Shown: positions 3,098 through 43,030 of the stretch, in pieces | Layout: each line of letters opens with the position of its first letter | How positions within the stretch are numbered: the first letter of the stretch is position 1 | From: Streptomyces sp. SID12501 | Lineage (GTDB): Bacteria > Actinomycetota > Actinomycetes > Streptomycetales > Streptomycetaceae | DNA length: 64,000 bases | NCBI RefSeq assembly: GCF_010550245.1 | Contig: NZ_JAAGLU010000045.1 | Location: 1-64,000 of the forward strand | Direction of reading: 5' to 3' | Program-made: the position numbers and the translations under genes | The notes under the pieces: model-generated | The model's database searches: none | What the model saw: only the letters and a program-made list of their open reading frames with translations | What the model was told of the DNA's origin: nothing

Positions 3098-3877
3098 TCA
3101 CATGAGCGCGAGCAGCAGCGTGTCCGAGGGTGAGCACCACACGGGACGCGCCTCCGCGAACCCCTTCTCGCGGAGCACGCGCGCGTGCCACCCGGCGGAG
3201 GGCATGTCGCCTTCGGCGTGCTCGCCGTAGATCTCGAAGCGGCGGGCGGTCGGCCCGGCGAGGACGGGGTCCTGGGCGGCGAGCCGCCACCATTCCGCCC
3301 AGTCGACGGCGCCGCTGTGTTTGGCCTGATCCATACGTACGTGGCGCAGTGCGCGCTCCGCCGCGTTGATCCGGGGCGTGCTGTCGTCGATCATGTGGTC
3401 CGCGTTCATGAACAGACCGCCGCCGCGGACGAGCTCCGCGATCCGGCCGTAGAGGTCCGCGAGGGGTTCGCTGTGCAGCCAGTGCAGGGCGGTGGCGGTC
3501 ACAACGGCGTCGTACGAGTCGTACGGCAGCCCGCTCGTCCACCGCGGGTCCTTGAGGTCGGCCGTGACGAAGGTGACCCGGTCGTCGCCCGCGAAGGTGC
3601 CCTCGGCGATGGCGAGGAGCGCCGGGTCGAGGTCGACGCCGACGCTTGTGGCCTGCGGGAACCGGTCGAGCAGCCGGGACGTGATACTTCCCGTGCCGCA
3701 TGCGAGGTCGAGCACGCGCGGGGCGGGGCCGACGAGGGCCTCGACCATGTCGAGCATGATCCGGAACCGATCCTCACGGTCCGGCATGTACCACTCCTGC
3801 TGCCGGTCCCAGCTCGCCTGCCAGGCATTCCAGTCGGTTCCGGTGTTCGTCCCGTTGGTGCCGGTGGTGGTGGTCAT
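3098..3877 (-). CDS. Class I SAM-dependent methyltransferase
   Basis: This 259-residue protein has the Rossmann methyltransferase motifs in order: RVLDLACGTGS (motif I, about residue 54), VGVDLDPALL (acidic end of beta-2), DAVVTATALHWLH (motif IV region) and LVRGGGLFMNADHM (post motif). The first 15 residues are a Thr/Gly/Asn-rich leader. The ATG has GGGGAGAGG six bases upstream. The substrate is unknown; the HWLH motif is common in small-molecule methyltransferases related to trans-aconitate and ubiquinone enzymes. It is transcribed away from the CGNR gene with a 128-bp shared promoter region. Confidence 0.85.
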   Translation of the reverse strand: MTTTTGTNGTNTGTDWNAWQASWDRQQEWYMPDREDRFRIMLDMVEALVGPAPRVLDLACGTGSITSRLLDRFPQATSVGVDLDPALLAIAEGTFAGDDRVTFVTADLKDPRWTSGLPYDSYDAVVTATALHWLHSEPLADLYGRIAELVRGGGLFMNADHMIDDSTPRINAAERALRHVRMDQAKHSGAVDWAEWWRLAAQDPVLAGPTARRFEIYGEHAEGDMPSAGWHARVLREKGFAEARPVWCSPSDTLLLALM

Positions 3878-5660: not shown

Positions 5661-6476
5661 TCAACGCCTGCAGACGAGAATCCCCGCCCGGCAGGTGACC
5701 TCGAACACGCCCTCGCGGGCGATCCGGTCGGTGACGATGGCGCGGGCCCGCTCGATCGTCGCGTCGAAGGGCGTGTCGTACTGGTCCGCCCAGGCCCGGT
5801 AGGACGCCAGGTACGCGACGACCGGCTCTGGTTCACGGACCGTGACGGTGCTGGGCAGCTCGATCGTCCGCACCCGGCCGAACTCCTCCCCGAGGAAGCC
5901 CGGGGCCTTCTCCAGGGAGAAACGGGCCCCGATCGAGAACCGGGCCGGTTCCTGTCCGGTGCCGAGCACGTCGCTCGCGGCCCGCTGCCAGAGGTCGTCG
6001 AGTTCGGCCTTGTCCCGCTCGCTGTTGGTGGAGGCGATCACCAGCCCGTCACGGGCGACGACGCGCGCCAACTCCCGCACCGCCTGCGGGATGTCGGGCA
6101 CGTGGTACAGCATGTGCAGTGCCAGGGCGGCGTCCACGCTCCCCGTGGCCAGCGGCAGCCGCGTGACATCCGCCACGGCGACCGGGCCTGGGACGGTGAC
6201 AAGGATGCCGGGCGAGATGTCCAGGCCGACCGTGGACAGGGCGGGCCGGTCCTCGCGCAGTCGCTGGACGTACTTTCCGTTGCCGCAGCCGACGTCGACC
6301 ACGCGCCCGCTCCCCCGCACACCGCTCAGCTGCTCGACGACGACGCCCGACAGGTCATGACGGGGCGTCTGCCACTGGTAGAGCGACTGCCGGGCTGCCA
6401 GGTCCCGGTCGCTGCTGTACGCGCTTCCGGCGAGGCGGACGCGGTCGGTGCCGGCGGCTGCGGTGCGTTCGGTCAC
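5661..6476 (-). CDS. Class I SAM-dependent methyltransferase
   Basis: This 271-residue protein carries VVDVGCGNGKYVQRL (SAM motif I, about residue 58), VGLDISPGI (motif II) and AALALHMLYHVPDI (motif IV), the set seen in UbiE/BioC-like enzymes. The substrate is unknown. GTG start at 6474-6476 is preceded by GGGAG. It is the last gene of a minus-strand run with ppk2, a small membrane protein and pit. A (GGGTGC)n tract separates it from ppk2, so cotranscription is possible but not certain. Confidence 0.85.
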   Translation of the reverse strand: MTERTAAAGTDRVRLAGSAYSSDRDLAARQSLYQWQTPRHDLSGVVVEQLSGVRGSGRVVDVGCGNGKYVQRLREDRPALSTVGLDISPGILVTVPGPVAVADVTRLPLATGSVDAALALHMLYHVPDIPQAVRELARVVARDGLVIASTNSERDKAELDDLWQRAASDVLGTGQEPARFSIGARFSLEKAPGFLGEEFGRVRTIELPSTVTVREPEPVVAYLASYRAWADQYDTPFDATIERARAIVTDRIAREGVFEVTCRAGILVCRR

Positions 6477-10744: not shown

Positions 10745-11383
10745 TCAGGTCCGGGGCTCGCGCCACATGGGCCACATCTGGGGGCCGTCCGGAAGGTCCA
10801 GGGGGCGGTCGAGGAGGTCGAAACCGAGGCGCTCGTACAGCGTGCGGCTGCGGGCGCTGCTCGCCTCCAGGTAGGCGGCCACTCCCTCGCGGTCGCAGCG
10901 GTCGAGGACGTGCTGCACGAGGGCGGTACCCAGCCCCAGGCCCTGGCTGTCCGGTGCGACACCGATCATCCACAGGTATTCGTGGGCGCGCCCGGAGGGG
11001 TGTATCCCGGCCGTGAGCCGAGCGATCAGTTCGACGCGCTCGTTGTCGGGATCGACGGCCTCGCGCATCTGGGCGGCGTCGTCGCCCTGCGCCTCCTCCG
11101 CCTCGTCCCCTTCGTTCGCCTCGGTCGCCTCGTTCGCCGGGTGGGCGTCGGCGGGGACGGACAGCCACAGGGCGCATGCCGTGCCGTCCTCGGCGAGGTC
11201 GACGCGGCCCTCGGCGAGCACGATGTCGAGGAAGGCGGCCATCAGTCTGGGATGCGTCGCGCGGCGGTGCGCCGGGTCCGGGAAGACCCAGCCGCTCACC
11301 GGATCGTTCTGGAACGCCCCGTCGAGCAGCCGGACGACCAGCTCCCGGTCGTCCTCGCCCGCCGTACGTATCGCTACGCCCAT
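10745..11383 (-). CDS. GNAT-family N-acetyltransferase
   Basis: This protein of about 212 residues contains the GNAT acetyl-CoA core: YLWMIGVAPDSQGLGLGTAL (motif A, Q/RxxGxG/A) and AYLEASSARSRTLYERLGFD (motif B). An acidic insert (EATEANEGDEAEEAQGDDAA) precedes it. The ATG near 11383 follows AAAGGGGCGG; a TTG at 11404 would lie inside an inverted repeat. The substrate is unknown. The palindrome just upstream may be an operator. Confidence 0.88.
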   Translation of the reverse strand: MGVAIRTAGEDDRELVVRLLDGAFQNDPVSGWVFPDPAHRRATHPRLMAAFLDIVLAEGRVDLAEDGTACALWLSVPADAHPANEATEANEGDEAEEAQGDDAAQMREAVDPDNERVELIARLTAGIHPSGRAHEYLWMIGVAPDSQGLGLGTALVQHVLDRCDREGVAAYLEASSARSRTLYERLGFDLLDRPLDLPDGPQMWPMWREPRT

Positions 11384-11399
11384 GACCCGCCCCTTTTGT

Positions 11400-11430
11400 C
11401 TCAACCGCCGTTGATCATACGGCGGTTGAG
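11400..11430. promoter_or_regulatory. 11-bp inverted repeat upstream of the GNAT gene
   Basis: CTCAACCGCCG (11400-11410) and CGGCGGTTGAG (11420-11430) are exact complements around TTGATCATA. It sits about 17-47 bp upstream of the GNAT start, where an operator or 5'-UTR hairpin could act. It carries no T-run, and a separate terminator-like hairpin lies just beyond. Confidence 0.5.
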
Positions 11431-11455
11431 CCTAACGGGTGCGGGATGTGTGACG

Positions 11456-11487
11456 GGGCCCGCACACCGTGGGGATGTGCGGGACCC
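11456..11487 (-). terminator. Hairpin after the polyprenyl synthase gene
   Basis: GGGCCCGCACA and TGTGCGGGACCC pair with one bulge or mismatch around a 9-nt loop, about 70 bp past the stop of the polyprenyl synthase. This is a likely terminator for the encapsulin operon. Confidence 0.55.
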
Positions 11488-11559
11488 GCCAGACCGGAGC
11501 GCCGCGGCGGGGCGCACGGAGTCAGGGCCGTACGCTCCGCCGCGGGTGGCTCCGGGGCC

Positions 11560-12801
11560 TCAGGTGGTGCGGCGGGTCACGAACTCGGCCAGGGACAGCA
11601 GGCCGCCTGCCGCCTCCGGGTCGGGGACCGCGCGGGACAGTTCGTGTACCGCGCGGGCCATCCGGTCGGCCGCCTGGAGCTGCGCCCAGTCCCGGCCGCC
11701 CGCGCGCTCGACGGCGAGCACCGTCCGCTCCAGCGCCCCTTCCTGCGCGTCGTCGTACGGAACCGCGTACAACTCGGCCAGTTCGGTGGCCGCCGGTGTG
11801 CCGGAGGCCAGTGCGGCGACCACGGGCAGGGACTTCTTGCGGGCGACCAGATCCGCCCCGGCCGGTTTGCCGGTGCGGCTCGGGTCCCCCCATATCCCGA
11901 TCACGTCGTCGATGAGCTGAAAGGCGAGCCCGGCCTCCCTGCCGAACGCGTCCATCGCCTCGACGTCCTCGGCCGACCCGCCCGCGTACAGCGCCCCGAG
12001 GGCGCAGGCGCAGCCGAGCAGCGCACCCGTCTTGGCCTCGGCCATGGCGAGGCACTCGTCGAGGGTGACCTCGCCGGGGCCCCGCTTCTCCATGGCCGTG
12101 TCCACGTGCTGCCCCTCGCACAGCTCGACGACGCAGGACGCGAGCCGGGCGGCGGCGACGGCGGACGCCGGGTGCGGGTCCTCGGCGAGCAACAGCAGCG
12201 CCAGGGCCTGCAGTGCGTCTCCCGCGAGGATCGCGTCGGCGTCGCCGAACACGGTCCACGCGGTGGGCCGGTGTCTGCGGGTGGTGTCCCGGTCCATGAC
12301 GTCGTCGTGCAGCAGGGTGAAGTTGTGGATCAGCTCCACCGCGGCGGCCGCTCGTACCGCCGCCTCCCGCCGGCCGCCGAGTGCCGCGGCCGCGGTCAGC
12401 ACGAGCGCCGGGCGGATCGCCTTGCCCGCGTTGCCCGCCGCCGGGCTGCCGTCCGCGTGCTCCCAACCGAAGTGGTAGAGCGCGACGCGGCGCATGGCCC
12501 CGGGCAGCGACTCGATCGCCGCGCGCAGCACGGGATCGACCACGGTCCGGGACTGCTCCAGGATGAGGGCGGCGTCCTGCCCGTCCGCCCCGCCGGACGC
12601 CGCCCTCTCCGCCCCCTTCCCCCGTACATGTACGGGGGATGATCCCCCCTGCCTCGCGTGCCTTGTGCCCACGGCCGGCCGCTCCCGTCCCCCGGACTCC
12701 GATGATGTCTCCGAAGGCCTCTCCGCCGGACTGCCGATGGGGTTCCGCCTCTCCGGATCCAGAGTCCCGATGGTCTCGGCCGGGCCGTGGGCCCGGGTCA
12801 T
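11560..12801 (-). CDS. Polyprenyl diphosphate synthase, probable encapsulin cargo
   Basis: The enzyme makes chains of isoprene units from IPP and an allylic primer. Both Asp-rich motifs are present: [10 protein letters not shown] and [20 protein letters not shown]. The first ~110 residues are polar, Ser/Pro/Gly/Arg-rich and probably disordered ([19 protein letters not shown] at the start). The full product is about 413 residues against about 300 for plain family members. The start ATG overlaps the stop of the shell gene (ATGA), so the two are coupled. Family 2 encapsulin operons are known to carry polyprenyl transferases whose disordered N-termini direct loading into the shell; by that precedent this enzyme is likely packaged. 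Product chain length cannot be read from sequence. Confidence 0.9.
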
Positions 12802-14204
12802 CGCCAGCGGCCGATCTCGACGTTCTCCAGCACGCCGAGGGCGTCCGGCACCAGGACGGCCGCCGAGTAGTAGGCCGTCACCAGGTAGTTGATGACCGCC
12901 TGTTCGTTGATGCCCATGAACCGCACGGACAGGCTGGGCTCGATCTCGTCCGGGATACCGGCCTGCTGGAGCCCGATGACCCCCTGCTCGGCCTCGCCGG
13001 TACGCATGGCGATGATCGAGGTCGTACGGGCCTCGGTGACCGGGATCTTGTTGCACGGGAAGATCGGCACACCGCGCCAGGTGGGGATGCGGTTGCCGCT
13101 CATGTCGATCGTCTCGGGGACGAGCCCGCGCTTGTTCAGCTCACGGCCGATCGCGGAGATCGCGCGCGGATGGGCGAGCAGGAACTTGGTCCCGCGCCGC
13201 CTGCTGAGCAGTTCGTCCAGGTCGTCGGGGCCGGGTACGCCGTCGTGCGGCTGGAGTCGCTGGTCGTACTCACAGTTGCTGAGCAGTCCGAACTCCCGGT
13301 TGTTGATGAGTTCGTGCTCCTGGCGCTCCTTCAATGCCTCGACCGTGAGCCGGAGTTGCTGCTCGGTCTGGTTCATCGGCTGGTTGTAGAGGTCGGCCAC
13401 GCGGGAGTGGATGCGCAGCACCGTCTGGGCGATGCTCAGTTCGTACTCGCGGGGCCTGGCCTCGTAGTCGACGAACGTGCGCGGGATGTCCGCTTCGCCG
13501 TGGTGACCGGCCGCGAGGTCGATCTCCTTCTCTCCGTACCTGTTGGCGCTCTGCTCCGGGATCGCGCTCAGCGCCTGGAGGTGATCGCGCAGCGAGTCGG
13601 CACGCTCGGCGACCTGCTCGAAGTGCTGACGGGAGAGTGTCAGCACGATGCACGTGGTGACCGCGCGGGCCGTGTACTCCCACAGGGCGTCGGGGTCGAC
13701 GAGCGCCTGGTCGCCGAAGTAGGCGCCGTCGGCCAGCATGCCGAGTTCGGTGTCGTCCCCGTACAGGCCCGTGCCGATCTTCTCGACCTTGCCGTGGGCC
13801 AGCAGGAACACCTCGTCGTTCGCGCTGCCGAAGGAGGCGATCTCCGAGCCTGGTGCGAACTCCCGCTGCTGGCAACGCCGGGCCAGCTCGGCGAACACCT
13901 CCTCGTCCTCGTAGTTCCGCAGCACCGGCAACTCGGACAGTTCGGCGGGGACCACTTCCACGCGTTCACCGGTCTTCACGAACGTCAGACGGCCGTCTCC
14001 CACGGAGTAGGTGAGCCGCCGGTTCACGCGGTATGCACCACCCTGCACGTTCACCCAGGGAAGCATCCGCAGCAGCCAGCGTGAGCTGATCTCCTGCATC
14101 TGGGGTACGGATTTGGTGGTGGTGGCCAGGTTCCGCGCGGCCGAAGTGCCGAGACTCTGCTGCGGCTTGTCCTGCTCCGTGCGGATCTCTTCGCCTACCG
14201 ACAT
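12798..14204 (-). CDS. Family 2B-type encapsulin shell protein with cNMP-binding domain (EshA-like)
   Basis: This 468-residue protein has an N-terminal arm ([19 protein letters not shown]), a first shell segment ([20 protein letters not shown]), an inserted cyclic-nucleotide-binding fold at about 75-215 ([35 protein letters not shown]), and a C-terminal HK97-like shell part ending in [20 protein letters not shown]. This is the Family 2B encapsulin layout, to which the Streptomyces protein EshA belongs. The canonical cNMP phosphate cassette (FGE...RxA) appears as FGDQAL...TARAV, so nucleotide binding may be altered. ATG at 14202-14204 follows GGGAGGG. The downstream polyprenyl synthase is coupled by a 4-bp overlap. 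The older name for this group is nucleotide-binding protein. Confidence 0.9.
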
Positions 14205-14485
14205 AAAGAACTGCCCTCCCATTAACGCGTAATGCGCCGATGCGTCGACCCCCCTCGGGCGTGCTCCGCATCGGACGCCTGCGCTCCCCACCCTTCCTCA
14301 CCGAGCGTGTCGGTGCTATTACACGAATGAGCGGGAATGGATCATCGCCGAAGTGGGCACATGAGAGTTTTTCGCCAGCTCGTTCGACCTGGCGAACGGG
14401 AAATGCCTCTTCCGGGGAACTTCAAGATCGCGTCGGCCGTTTGAGCAATTACCGGACAACGAACAAAACGAACAAGGAGACATCG

Positions 14486-14719
14486 ATGGCAGGCTTCCTG
14501 GACCGCGCCAAGGAACAGGCACAGCGCGGCCTGACGCAGGGCAAGCAGAAGCTCGACGAGGTACAGGCCCAGCGGGCCGGCGGCGACCTGCTCAAGAAAC
14601 TGGGCGCGGCGTACTACGCGGAGCGGCGCGGCAGCGGTTCCCCCGACGCGACGCAGCGGGCCCTGCAGGCTCTGGAGAGCCACATCGCGGTGAACGGGGA
14701 CTCGTTCCTGCACCAGTGA
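14486..14719 (+). CDS. Small helical protein, function unknown
   Basis: The 77-residue product is charged and probably all helix (FLDRAKEQAQRGLTQGKQKL, then LLKKLGAAYYAERRGSG). It starts at ATG 14486 after AAGGAGA. It is divergent from the shell gene with 281 bp between, in which I see AT-richer sequence but no clear motif. The family is common in Streptomyces, as I recall, with no assigned role. There is no signal peptide or membrane helix. Confidence 0.75.
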   Translation: MAGFLDRAKEQAQRGLTQGKQKLDEVQAQRAGGDLLKKLGAAYYAERRGSGSPDATQRALQALESHIAVNGDSFLHQ

Positions 14720-40349: not shown

Positions 40350-41720
40350 TCAGCGGGCTGTCGCCCGCAGCAGCATCCGGTCCGGGTGCAGGGTGATGCC
40401 CACGCGGACCGCGTCGCGCGATCCGGGCACGCGTTCGAAGCGCCACCGCCTGGCCACCTCGGCCGTGAGGATGGTCAGCATGGCCATCGAGAAATGGTCA
40501 CTCGGACACTTGCGGTTGCCCACGCCGAACGGGGTCATCGCGTACTTGGGCAGGTCCTTGACACGTTCCGGAAGCCAGCGGTCGGGGTCGAACTCGGTGT
40601 TCCGCTCGTACGAACGCGGATCGCGCTGTATCGCGTACGGGCTGTACACGAGATCGGCACCGGCTGGAATCCGATAGCCGCCCAGCTCGGTCTCGGCCAC
40701 CGCCCGCCGTGTCAATATCCATACGGGCGGCTGCAAACGCATCGTCTCGACGACGACATTGTTCGTGTGCGCCAGCTTGCGGACGTCCTCGAATGCGACC
40801 GCTCGGTCGCCCCCGACCGATTCCGCCTCCTCGGCCACCTTGTCGGCGTGTTCCGGCTGTTCGGCGAGGACCTGGAGCAGGGACATGATCGTGGAGGCGA
40901 CGGTTTCGGCGCCCGGAGTGACTATGGCGATGACCTGGTCATGGATCTCCTGTTCGCCTATGGGGTCGCCATTCTCGTTCTTCGCCGTCAGCAAAGCCGT
41001 CAGCAAATCGTCCGGATTTTGACCGGATGCCCGGCGCTCGGCCACGATCTCGTCGACGACAAGATGCATATCGGCCAGGGCCCGGTTGAATTTGAGGTTG
41101 GCCGGCAGCGGAAGCCGGTAGAGCGGCCCCGCCGGGATCACCATGCGCCGGTACATCCCCAGGAACACCGTGGCGAGCGCGGCGCACAGGCGTTCGGCCC
41201 GCTCGTCCATGTAGTCGCCGCGCAGCAGACAGCGGGCCGCGATGCGCACGGCGATCCGGAAGGACTCCGCGGTGCAGTCGATGATCTCGCCGGGCTGCCA
41301 GCGCCGGGCGAACGCCTGCGCCTCCTCCGCCATGATCGGTCCGTACTCGGGGAGGACGTCCAACCTGAACGCGGGCTGTATGGTGCGCCGTTGGCGCCGG
41401 TGGGTGGGCCCGTTGGCGGTGGCCACGCCCTCCTTGCCGAGCAGCCCTTCGAGGGACTCCCACAGCGGGCCGCCGATGATGTAGTCGGGGTTCAGCGCGA
41501 GTTCTCCGACCAGTTCCGGCGCGGTGGCGGCGTACACCGTCTTGGGGCCGAGTTTCAGCCGTACGACGTCGCCGTGGTCGCGGAGCCGGGCGAAGTAGCC
41601 CAGCGGGTCGCGGACCAGCTGCCAGCCGTGGCCGAGAAGCGGGACACCGCCGCCCGCGAAGGGCGGATCGGGCAGCTCCCTGGCGTGGGGGGACACGGGA
41701 CGTACTGATTCGACGGTCAT
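40350..41720 (-). CDS. Cytochrome P450, CYP170A type (albaflavenone synthase)
   Basis: CYP170A1 oxidises epi-isozizaene to albaflavenols and albaflavenone. The 456-residue protein has the I-helix stretch [15 protein letters not shown], the ExxR motif [23 protein letters not shown] and the haem loop [13 protein letters not shown], where the usual Gly after Cys-x is Ser, as in CYP170. Start ATG overlaps the stop of the terpene synthase (ATGA), so they form a coupled two-gene operon. A moonlighting farnesene-synthase activity is reported for the S. coelicolor enzyme; its presence here is not tested. Confidence 0.92.
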
Positions 41721-42802
41721 TTCTCACCTGCCGCTTCGTTGTTGACGTACGGGGGTGTGGAGCGGTCGTCCCAGTTGTCGACCATGTAGCGGCCGGACTC
41801 GTGGTGGAACCAGTAGACGGAACTGAACCAGTTCCGCATATTGCCGAGACAGACGATCACGGCGGTGCTGATTTGCTTTCCGCGCGCGCTGCCGTCGTCG
41901 AGTGATTCGGCGAACCTGCGCGCTTCCTGTTCCTTCGAGAGGAATTCCAGAACTGTCCTCTCGACCCGCCCCCTGACTTCCGTGATGGCCTCTTCGAGTG
42001 TCAGCCCGTCGTGCCGTATGAGACTGATCCCGAGATTGTGCACCTCGTCACCCGCGAGTTCCTTCGGGAGTGAGCAGAGGTCGTTGTACCAGGCGGCGAA
42101 TTCCTGACTCAGCAGCGCCGCCCGGTGGAATGCGGGGTGTTTCCGCACCACGCTCGGGAGTTCGCATCCCGCGCTGGGCTCCAGGAGATCGGTCCAGATC
42201 CAGTGCGCGAAGGTGAGCCGCCGAAGTTCGAGGTATTCCTCGACTTTCGGCACGGTTCCGTTTGTGCGGTTTCGGAATTCGCGGTCGTACGCGTCGATCA
42301 CCTCGTGGAAGTGCCGCGCGAAGCGGGCGTTCCACCTCCTGCCCAGGAACGAGTACAGGCGCAGGACACTGTCCGCGAACCCCGCGACCAGCGGGTCCCG
42401 GTGGTACAGATACATCCCGGGTGCGTCCAGCGCGGCGTGGAGCCGGCCCTTGAGATGCCGCCAGGCGGCGGGCCGGCCATGCACGATGTCGCGGTCGTGG
42501 CGGTCGTCCCAGACGAAGAACCAGGCACTGAAGTCCGCTATCGCCTGGAGTACGTCGTCCGGGGCGCCGAGGTAGTACCCGGCCATGAGGTCGGTGTAGC
42601 AAAGACCGTCGGCATATTCTGCGACCTTGTCCGCCGACATGAGGCGTTTTTCCAGCAGCCAGCCCCTGGTCCTCTCCTGCAGTTGGGGCCAATACGGATG
42701 CAGTTGCCGGGGAAACGCCGCCTCGATCACAGGTAAGGCCAGTGATGGTGGGATCGCTACCGCTGGTGTCGCCGGTGAGGTGCTGTGTGGGAAAGCAGGC
42801 AC
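41717..42802 (-). CDS. Epi-isozizaene synthase (sesquiterpene cyclase)
   Basis: The enzyme cyclises farnesyl diphosphate to epi-isozizaene with Mg2+. The 361-residue protein has the Asp-rich motif [12 protein letters not shown] and the NSE triad [16 protein letters not shown], plus the C-terminal RY pair ([19 protein letters not shown]). It is close to the S. coelicolor protein over its whole length. GTG 42800-42802 follows AGAGGGG with good spacing; the frame continues upstream without homology. The pathway continues with the coupled CYP170. Confidence 0.95.
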
Positions 42803-43030
42803 GAACAAACCCCTCTCAGCCGCGAGTTGGCGCAACACCCCTCCCGCTGTGCCGGGCGTGCGCCGTTGCGTATCCCCGCAGTTCCCATTCAGCACTACAA
42901 CTGACCGTTCTGGGAACGTATTTGCTTCCTTCACTACCCCAAGCTGCCGAGATTCACCTCTTGCCTGACTGGTTCTGGATCACTACAGGCGCACTTGAGT
43001 CCACGTTTCGATCGAACGTACGACAGACAT
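42803..43030. other. Promoter region of the albaflavenone operon
   Basis: No gene is supported here. The segment is somewhat AT-richer than average (ACGTATTTGCTTCCTTCAC; CACTACAACTGACC) and should hold the terpene synthase promoter on the minus strand; I cannot fix the elements. Confidence 0.4.

Follow-up and report, generated by a model that had tools for sequence, protein, structure and literature searches.

The window that we analysed, a stretch of 64,000 nucleotides from Streptomyces sp. SID12501, carries a Family 2B encapsulin shell gene directly followed by a polyprenyl diphosphate synthase (PT) gene, and represents a further case of a published class of Family 2B loci that consist of a shell and a PT. 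The best explanation of the locus as a whole, which we regard as likely, is an operon of shell and PT whose synthase is carried inside the shell.

Layout of the locus

Both open reading frames were found on the minus strand at exactly the coordinates given in the original prediction. The genes and the signals upstream of them are as follows:

12798 to 14204, minus strand: Family 2B encapsulin shell gene, 468 amino acids, ATG start
11560 to 12801, minus strand: PT gene, 413 amino acids, joined to the shell stop codon by an ATGA overlap
14213 to 14220, minus strand: ribosome-binding site of the shell gene, GGGAGGGC
14313 to 14344, minus strand: conserved upstream element TGATCCATTCCCGCTCATTCGTGTAATAGCAC, intergenic, 5′ of the shell gene

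The start codon of the PT overlaps the stop codon of the shell gene as ATGA. The two genes probably form a translationally coupled operon, and the coupled stop and start suggest matched expression of shell and PT. The element TGATCCATTCCCGCTCATTCGTGTAATAGCAC is kept in an alignment of the window with 15 loci chosen out of the 80 nearest ones, which are the top-ranking 80 among 556 confirmed relatives. A genome-wide search for the 24-base core of the element, with up to 3 mismatches allowed, gave a single site; the element is possibly a promoter or operator of the operon. A scan of positions 11300–14500 found no sigma-70 promoter and a single terminator-like site, which lies on the wrong strand and equals the number obtained with shuffled sequences.

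The shell protein

The following domains were delimited in the shell protein:

13575 to 13940, minus strand: inserted cyclic-nucleotide-binding-like (cNMP-like) domain, residues 89–210, with the Family 2A model aligning on either side
12807 to 13556, minus strand: SrpI-like HK97-type shell domain, residues 217–466

The protein scores 448.8 bits against PF19307 (cut-off 22.8), 51 bits against PF00027 (residues 114–201) and 760.9 bits against the NCBIfam model encap_f2b, whose cut-off of 400 does not by itself exclude Family 2A shells, as the 2A shell of this genome scores 413.9. In a phmmer search it matched the solved shells 9bhu, 9bix and 9bje over their full length, with E-values of 2e-195 to 3e-179; these are the Streptomyces griseus 2B encapsulin and two Streptomyces lydicus shells (PMC12407261). 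The cNMP-like domain divides the alignment of the Family 2A model into two parts, profile positions 1–46 and 49–292, and such a split around an insert in the E-loop is the mark that sets Family 2B apart from 2A. Judged by its sequence, which has both defining features, the SrpI-like domain and the cNMP-like insert, the protein is a Family 2B encapsulin. The matches to PF19307, PF00027 and encap_f2b, together with the solved 2B shells, bear out the earlier description of an HK97-like shell with an inserted cNMP domain.

Median identity to the window shell is 67% in the linker (residues 211–240), 72% in the inserted domain and 92% in the shell core. The predicted structure of the shell is poor (mean pLDDT 53), with the inserted domain well predicted within it, so the assignment of the HK97 fold draws on homology, and for the same reason the model was left out of the fold search. 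By the precedent of S. lydicus Sl-Enc2, for which shell size and domain placement are given in PMC12407261, 60 copies of the protein would assemble into a shell about 28 nm across, whose outer face carries the inserted domains over the two-fold pores.

Loss of the phosphate-binding arginine in the inserted domain

Within the inserted domain we located one further feature:

13659 to 13721, minus strand: degenerate phosphate-binding cassette, residues 162–182, with Trp175 in place of the phosphate-binding Arg

Of the 140 aligned shell rows, 139 have Trp where CRP-type domains have this Arg; at the site of the ribose-binding Glu, 84 rows have Asp and 52 have Glu. The alignment counts the window shell twice (once as locus L120). 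With Asp165 and Trp175, the window shell does not have the Glu/Arg cassette of the CRP type; we take the cassette positions to correspond to the CRP residues so numbered. The replacement of Arg by Trp in nearly all rows fits the published report, from a 2-MIB encapsulin study as cited in PMC12407261, that such inserted domains bind no cyclic nucleotide. On these two grounds the original suspicion, that the atypical motif might point to a trigger other than cAMP, holds well, and to judge by the cassette a cAMP trigger for the shell is unlikely. The inserted domain would not be a conventional sensor of cAMP or cGMP; a different ligand may control pore gating through it, or it may function ligand-free.

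The synthase

The PT consists of a folded catalytic domain preceded by a tail:

11563 to 12582, minus strand: folded PT catalytic domain, residues 74–413
12292 to 12306, minus strand: first Asp-rich motif, DDVMD, residues 166–170, with Phe at −5
11896 to 11910, minus strand: second Asp-rich motif in the form DDVIG, residues 298–302
12583 to 12801, minus strand: disordered tail, residues 1–73, given the overlapping ATG as the true start
12733 to 12753, minus strand: tail motif ERRNPIG, residues 17–23

The protein scores 198.3 bits against PF00348 and 491.5 bits against the NCBIfam model f2_encap_cargo4 (cut-off 450), and its gene adjoins a 2B shell; on the strength of this profile match it is a member of the PT family of Family 2 encapsulin cargos. 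The Asp residues of the first motif and the Phe five residues upstream are invariant in 39 of 39 PTs, as are D298, D299 and G302. The second motif reads DDxxG, not DDxxD, in all 39, and D306 is kept in 36 of them. The active-site Lys, Arg, Gln and Asp positions included in our check are likewise invariant (39/39). With two Asp-rich motifs and the substrate-binding Lys and Arg, the PT has the sequence hallmarks of a trans-prenyl diphosphate synthase. The AlphaFold model of its core is confident, and the closest fold is the Streptomyces coelicolor polyprenyl synthetase 3nf2, followed by archaeal GGPP and isoprenoid synthases. The synthase, most likely situated inside the shell, would condense IPP with an allylic diphosphate to a product of probably C15–C20.

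Distribution and chromosomal setting

The encap_f2b model was matched over its cut-off in 147 of 150 sampled Streptomyces genomes, that of the window included. In 145 of these the E-value was at most 4e-222, and the remaining two (3e-138 and 1e-166) are unsure and may be 2A, because a 2A shell can pass the cut-off. A 2B shell is thus present in at least 145 of the 150 genomes. Among 14 control genomes, nine gave matches below the cut-off and none above it.

In 77 of the 80 nearest loci the gene immediately downstream of the shell encodes a PT, whose frame is broken in two of the 77 (L030 and L068). Two of the three loci without a downstream PT (L008 and L015) are at contig ends. In the third, L013, which belongs to a metagenome-assembled genome, the shell stop is followed within a few bases by the apparent last PT codons, around position 3360; we infer that the PT was deleted or that the assembly collapsed. 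Behind other 2B shells, 60 additional downstream stretches gave 46 with a PT and 14 with none, and nine of the latter coincide with matches to 2-MIB-type cyclases.

A Na+/H+ antiporter, a sigma factor and a PALP gene accompany the pair in all 62 full-length loci, an amidase in 48 and an acetyltransferase in 44. The locus thus holds a fixed place in the chromosome. Genes near it in the window, which include albaflavenone genes, a class I ribonucleotide reductase and a sigma factor, appear to fit the region around S. coelicolor eshB (SCO5249). Our literature search found no established role for this near-universal Streptomyces locus, so its function would be of broad relevance.

HK97-type folds are common to encapsulins and phage capsids, and on that ground the shell gene might be a phage capsid remnant that happens to adjoin an unrelated synthase. 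The encap_f2b score far over the cut-off, the presence of a strong 2B match in no fewer than 145 of the 150 sampled genomes, the conserved chromosomal place and the finding of no phage gene among the scanned neighbours leave this origin almost no credibility.

The N-terminal tail of the synthase

The original prediction assigned the PT a disordered N-terminus of about 110 residues. The disorder is supported, but the length comes to 73 residues: in the AlphaFold model residues 1–73 have pLDDT below 50 and the first helix begins at 77, and the matches start at 124 for Pfam, at 79 for the NCBIfam model and at 76 for the solved relative 3nf2. The window PT has a disordered extension within the range of 50–100 residues, a feature that is not general among its relatives.

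Among the window PT and its five closest relatives, codons 1–42 evolve at a dN/dS of 0.74 (from 14 of 15 pairs, one pair having a dS of zero), codons 43–73 at 1.07 and the core at 0.18. Identity to the window is 80–100% over codons 1–25 and 53–94% over codons 26–42. Among the PTs of a 163-member tree, 40 of the 160 scored ones, all six distant relatives included, have at most 15 residues before the core; these lengths rest on start-codon rules that differ between our two sets, which leaves about five of the 40 in doubt and puts the share of such short tails at a fifth to a quarter. One example is the identical pair L028 and L207, scored as short in one set but as long in the second; L022, L041, L046 and L080 raise the same kind of doubt. 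The long and short states need 13 changes on the tree, seven of them forced by well-supported branches. Independently of any start rule, 11 of the 117 PTs of the first set and 4 of the 46 of the second can have no more than 25 tail residues, because a stop codon (in frame, or that of the shell gene) lies in the way.

An alternative in-frame GTG start at codon 44 of the window PT has a better ribosome-binding-site score than the overlapping ATG, and third-position GC in the tail rises only mildly. Translation possibly starts at this GTG, which would leave a tail of about 30 residues and ERRNPIG untranslated.

The motif was defined after inspection of the first tails (strict form ER[RH]xxI[GA]), and the window's own copy, L120, was excluded from the counts. 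The strict form occurs in 19 of the 117 tails of the first set (shuffled sequences: mean 0.05, maximum 1) and the loose form in 32 (mean 1.2, maximum 6), three of the 32 lying upstream of the assigned PT start. Previously unseen tails gave 2 of 45 for the strict and 4 of 45 for the loose form (shuffle means 0.006 and 0.27); 45 of the 46 were used, one PT being 100% identical to one already counted. Below 80% core identity the loose form is found in 2 of 19 tails and the strict form in one of 19, and kinship inflates the figures of the first set. Taken together, the ERRxPIG-type motif is above chance but confined to a clade, and we consider it a candidate lineage-limited signal. A likeness of VGTRHAR (residues 44–50) to the cyclase tag LGTSAAR was considered and rejected, as the relatives do not keep it. 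In L025, the PT tail is built of tandem repeats of GPAPRPETPPLH and measures about 190–246 residues depending on the start.

As a device for loading, the tail of the original prediction does exist and is predicted to be disordered, but it is a weak foundation for the loading claim, as neither its sequence nor its length shows more than slight conservation and the cyclase tag is absent. It is probably not the sole determinant of PT loading, and we would expect it to be largely dispensable for that purpose, or its short motif alone to matter.

Does the shell carry the synthase?

The behaviour of the tail bears on a reading in which the PT is a partner in the operon and stays in the cytosol, while the shell, of the EshB type, has a developmental role or another cargo. 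The tail evolves almost neutrally and is short in many PTs, even as the operon itself persists, and the PTs have no tag of the cyclase type. In addition, S. coelicolor eshB (SCO5249), described as a putative cyclic-nucleotide-binding gene, has a promoter whose activity rises during development (PMC3878966). A cytosolic PT sits less well with the persistent adjacency of shell and PT, with about 900 published operons, and with the coupled stop and start, from which matched expression would follow. We consider it rather unlikely.

Encapsulation of the PT appears probable to us. It is supported by the family matches over their cut-offs, the match to solved shells, the adjacency of shell and PT (77/80 and 46/60), the fixed setting, the intact catalytic residues, the fold shared with 3nf2 and GGPP synthases, and the survey of 900 operons. 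The labile tail, the missing cyclase tag, the 14 of 60 stretches with no PT and the poor shell model speak against it. The original claim of loading "by precedent" stands in part. A cysteine desulfurase is loaded into the Family 2A SrpI shell through a disordered N-terminal domain (PMC8049743), and terpene cyclases are a cargo of 2B shells, as cited in PMC12407261, but among the papers listed in our literature search we found none that shows a PT inside a 2B shell.

Terpene cyclases and a second encapsulin in the genome

The scanned neighbours of the operon include neither a cyclase nor a GPP methyltransferase, as had been predicted. This is nothing peculiar to the window: a blastp comparison of the four class I terpene synthases of the genome with the open frames in the 80 loci gave no homologue (the flanks extend to 10 kb as far as the contigs permit, and contig ends shorten 18 of the 80), and the survey of Andreas and Giessen (2021) lists 165 operons with a cyclase out of 900 PT operons (PMC8346489). 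A missing cyclase can therefore be regarded as the normal state. A methyltransferase at 5661–6476 was rejected as a GPP methyltransferase; its best NCBIfam score is 52.3 bits against a cut-off of 155, and it occurs in one of 62 loci.

The nearest cyclase of the genome is about 29 kb away, in agreement with the original prediction, and forms part of a separate pair:

40350 to 42838, minus strand: albaflavenone pair, epi-isozizaene synthase (41720–42838) and P450

The synthase of this pair scores 729.1 bits (cut-off 675) and the adjoining albaflavenone P450 814.5 bits (cut-off 700). We rejected this cyclase as a pathway partner, since it belongs to its own albaflavenone pair and we found nothing that links it to the operon; epi-isozizaene synthase and the PT may possibly share an FPP pool.

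The genome has two SrpI-like genes, the one described here and a 2A shell elsewhere, and no second 2B shell gene was found. The 2A shell is encoded on contig C199 (L005, 7736–10586) together with a cysteine desulfurase cargo, both over their NCBIfam cut-offs.

This shell, as the only 2B shell of the genome, might instead take up an unlinked terpene cyclase, with the PT or in its place, and the stand-alone geosmin synthase (L157, contig C343) is an example of such a cargo. The other SrpI-like shell is 2A and has no cNMP domain, an FPP-making PT would feed the geosmin synthase, and this enzyme scores 1149.6 bits with the cyclase model for encapsulin cargos and contains GFGTSAAN between its domains. 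That score is nevertheless below the curated cut-off of 1200, the C-terminal tag copy present in many relatives is missing from the enzyme, which is unlinked to the shell, and the genome has no 2-MIB-type cyclase over the cut-off. A cyclase cargo for this shell is accordingly improbable in our estimate, and we retain the PT as the likely cargo.

Cargo tags and the N-arm of the shell

A comparison of cargo tags with the shell itself drew on the following segment:

14109 to 14156, minus strand: shell N-arm segment, residues 17–32, nearly invariant in those 2B shells whose rows span it (12–15 of the 140 shell rows are gapped there)

The pattern P[TSA]G[LIVF]GT occurs in 27 and the LGTSAA type in 9 of the 30 best-scoring 2-MIB-type cyclases, within the part of each protein that was scanned (shuffled sequences: 0.016 each). 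LGTSAAR or a close form is found in 16 of the 30 best-scoring proteins of the geosmin synthase type, in 14 of them at the C-terminus. In the 163 PT tails, the first pattern occurs twice, on both occasions at a place that seems to precede the likely start, and the LGTSAA type was not found; the window PT contains no tag of the GPTGLGT(SAAR) type. Both cyclase samples were picked by score with models that cover the tag regions and so favour tagged proteins, whereas the PT sample was picked otherwise.

The N-arm of the shell reads SLGT[SA]..., nearly invariantly, and its heptamer LGT[SA]AAR is identical to the tag published for cargos of the geosmin synthase type (L229–L258 and L259–L288; window 14109–14156). 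Among the papers searched, the motifs GPTGLGT and LGTSAAR appear in PMC8346489 only. This identity suggests molecular mimicry: the cyclase tag GPTGLGTSAAR would copy the shell N-arm, and the cargo would dock in the place of the N-arm. PTs, which have no such tag, would enter by another route, in some lineages via ERRxPIG[ST], or not at all. We put this forward tentatively, as a possibility raised by motif comparison that we consider rather unlikely; if it is true, the cyclase tag would load by imitating the N-arm of the shell.

Comparison with known systems

The eshB paralogue eshA has a phenotype that concerns ppGpp and actinorhodin. The eshB gene of S. coelicolor (SCO5249) and its neighbour SCO5250 apparently present the same setting as the window, with a shell gene of the 2B type, a likeness suggested by the SCO numbers of the neighbours. 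For eshB, a possible direct negative regulation by AtrA has been listed (PMC13170358).

The Family 2A cysteine desulfurase encapsulin SrpI of Synechococcus elongatus (PMC8049743) has the same shell core and is the precedent for loading through a disordered N-terminus, but it has no cNMP domain and its cargo is other than the PT of the window. The encapsulins of 2-MIB-type cyclases share the shell family and a disordered terminus of the cargo; unlike them, the window has no adjoining cyclase or GPP methyltransferase, and its PT has no GPTGLGT tag. S. lydicus Sl-Enc1 and Sl-Enc2 (PMC12407261) are the same kind of 2B shell, and the window shell has the Enc2-like RRR at residues 335–337. That system has two shell genes and a xylulose kinase, whereas the window has one shell gene and a PT.

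The closest counterparts are the Family 2B PT operons of Actinobacteria (PMC8346489), which have the same shell with a cNMP domain and an adjacent PT with a disordered N-terminus, and from which the window differs in nothing essential. That survey reports no conserved motif in the PT tails, whereas we find a short motif in a subset of them.
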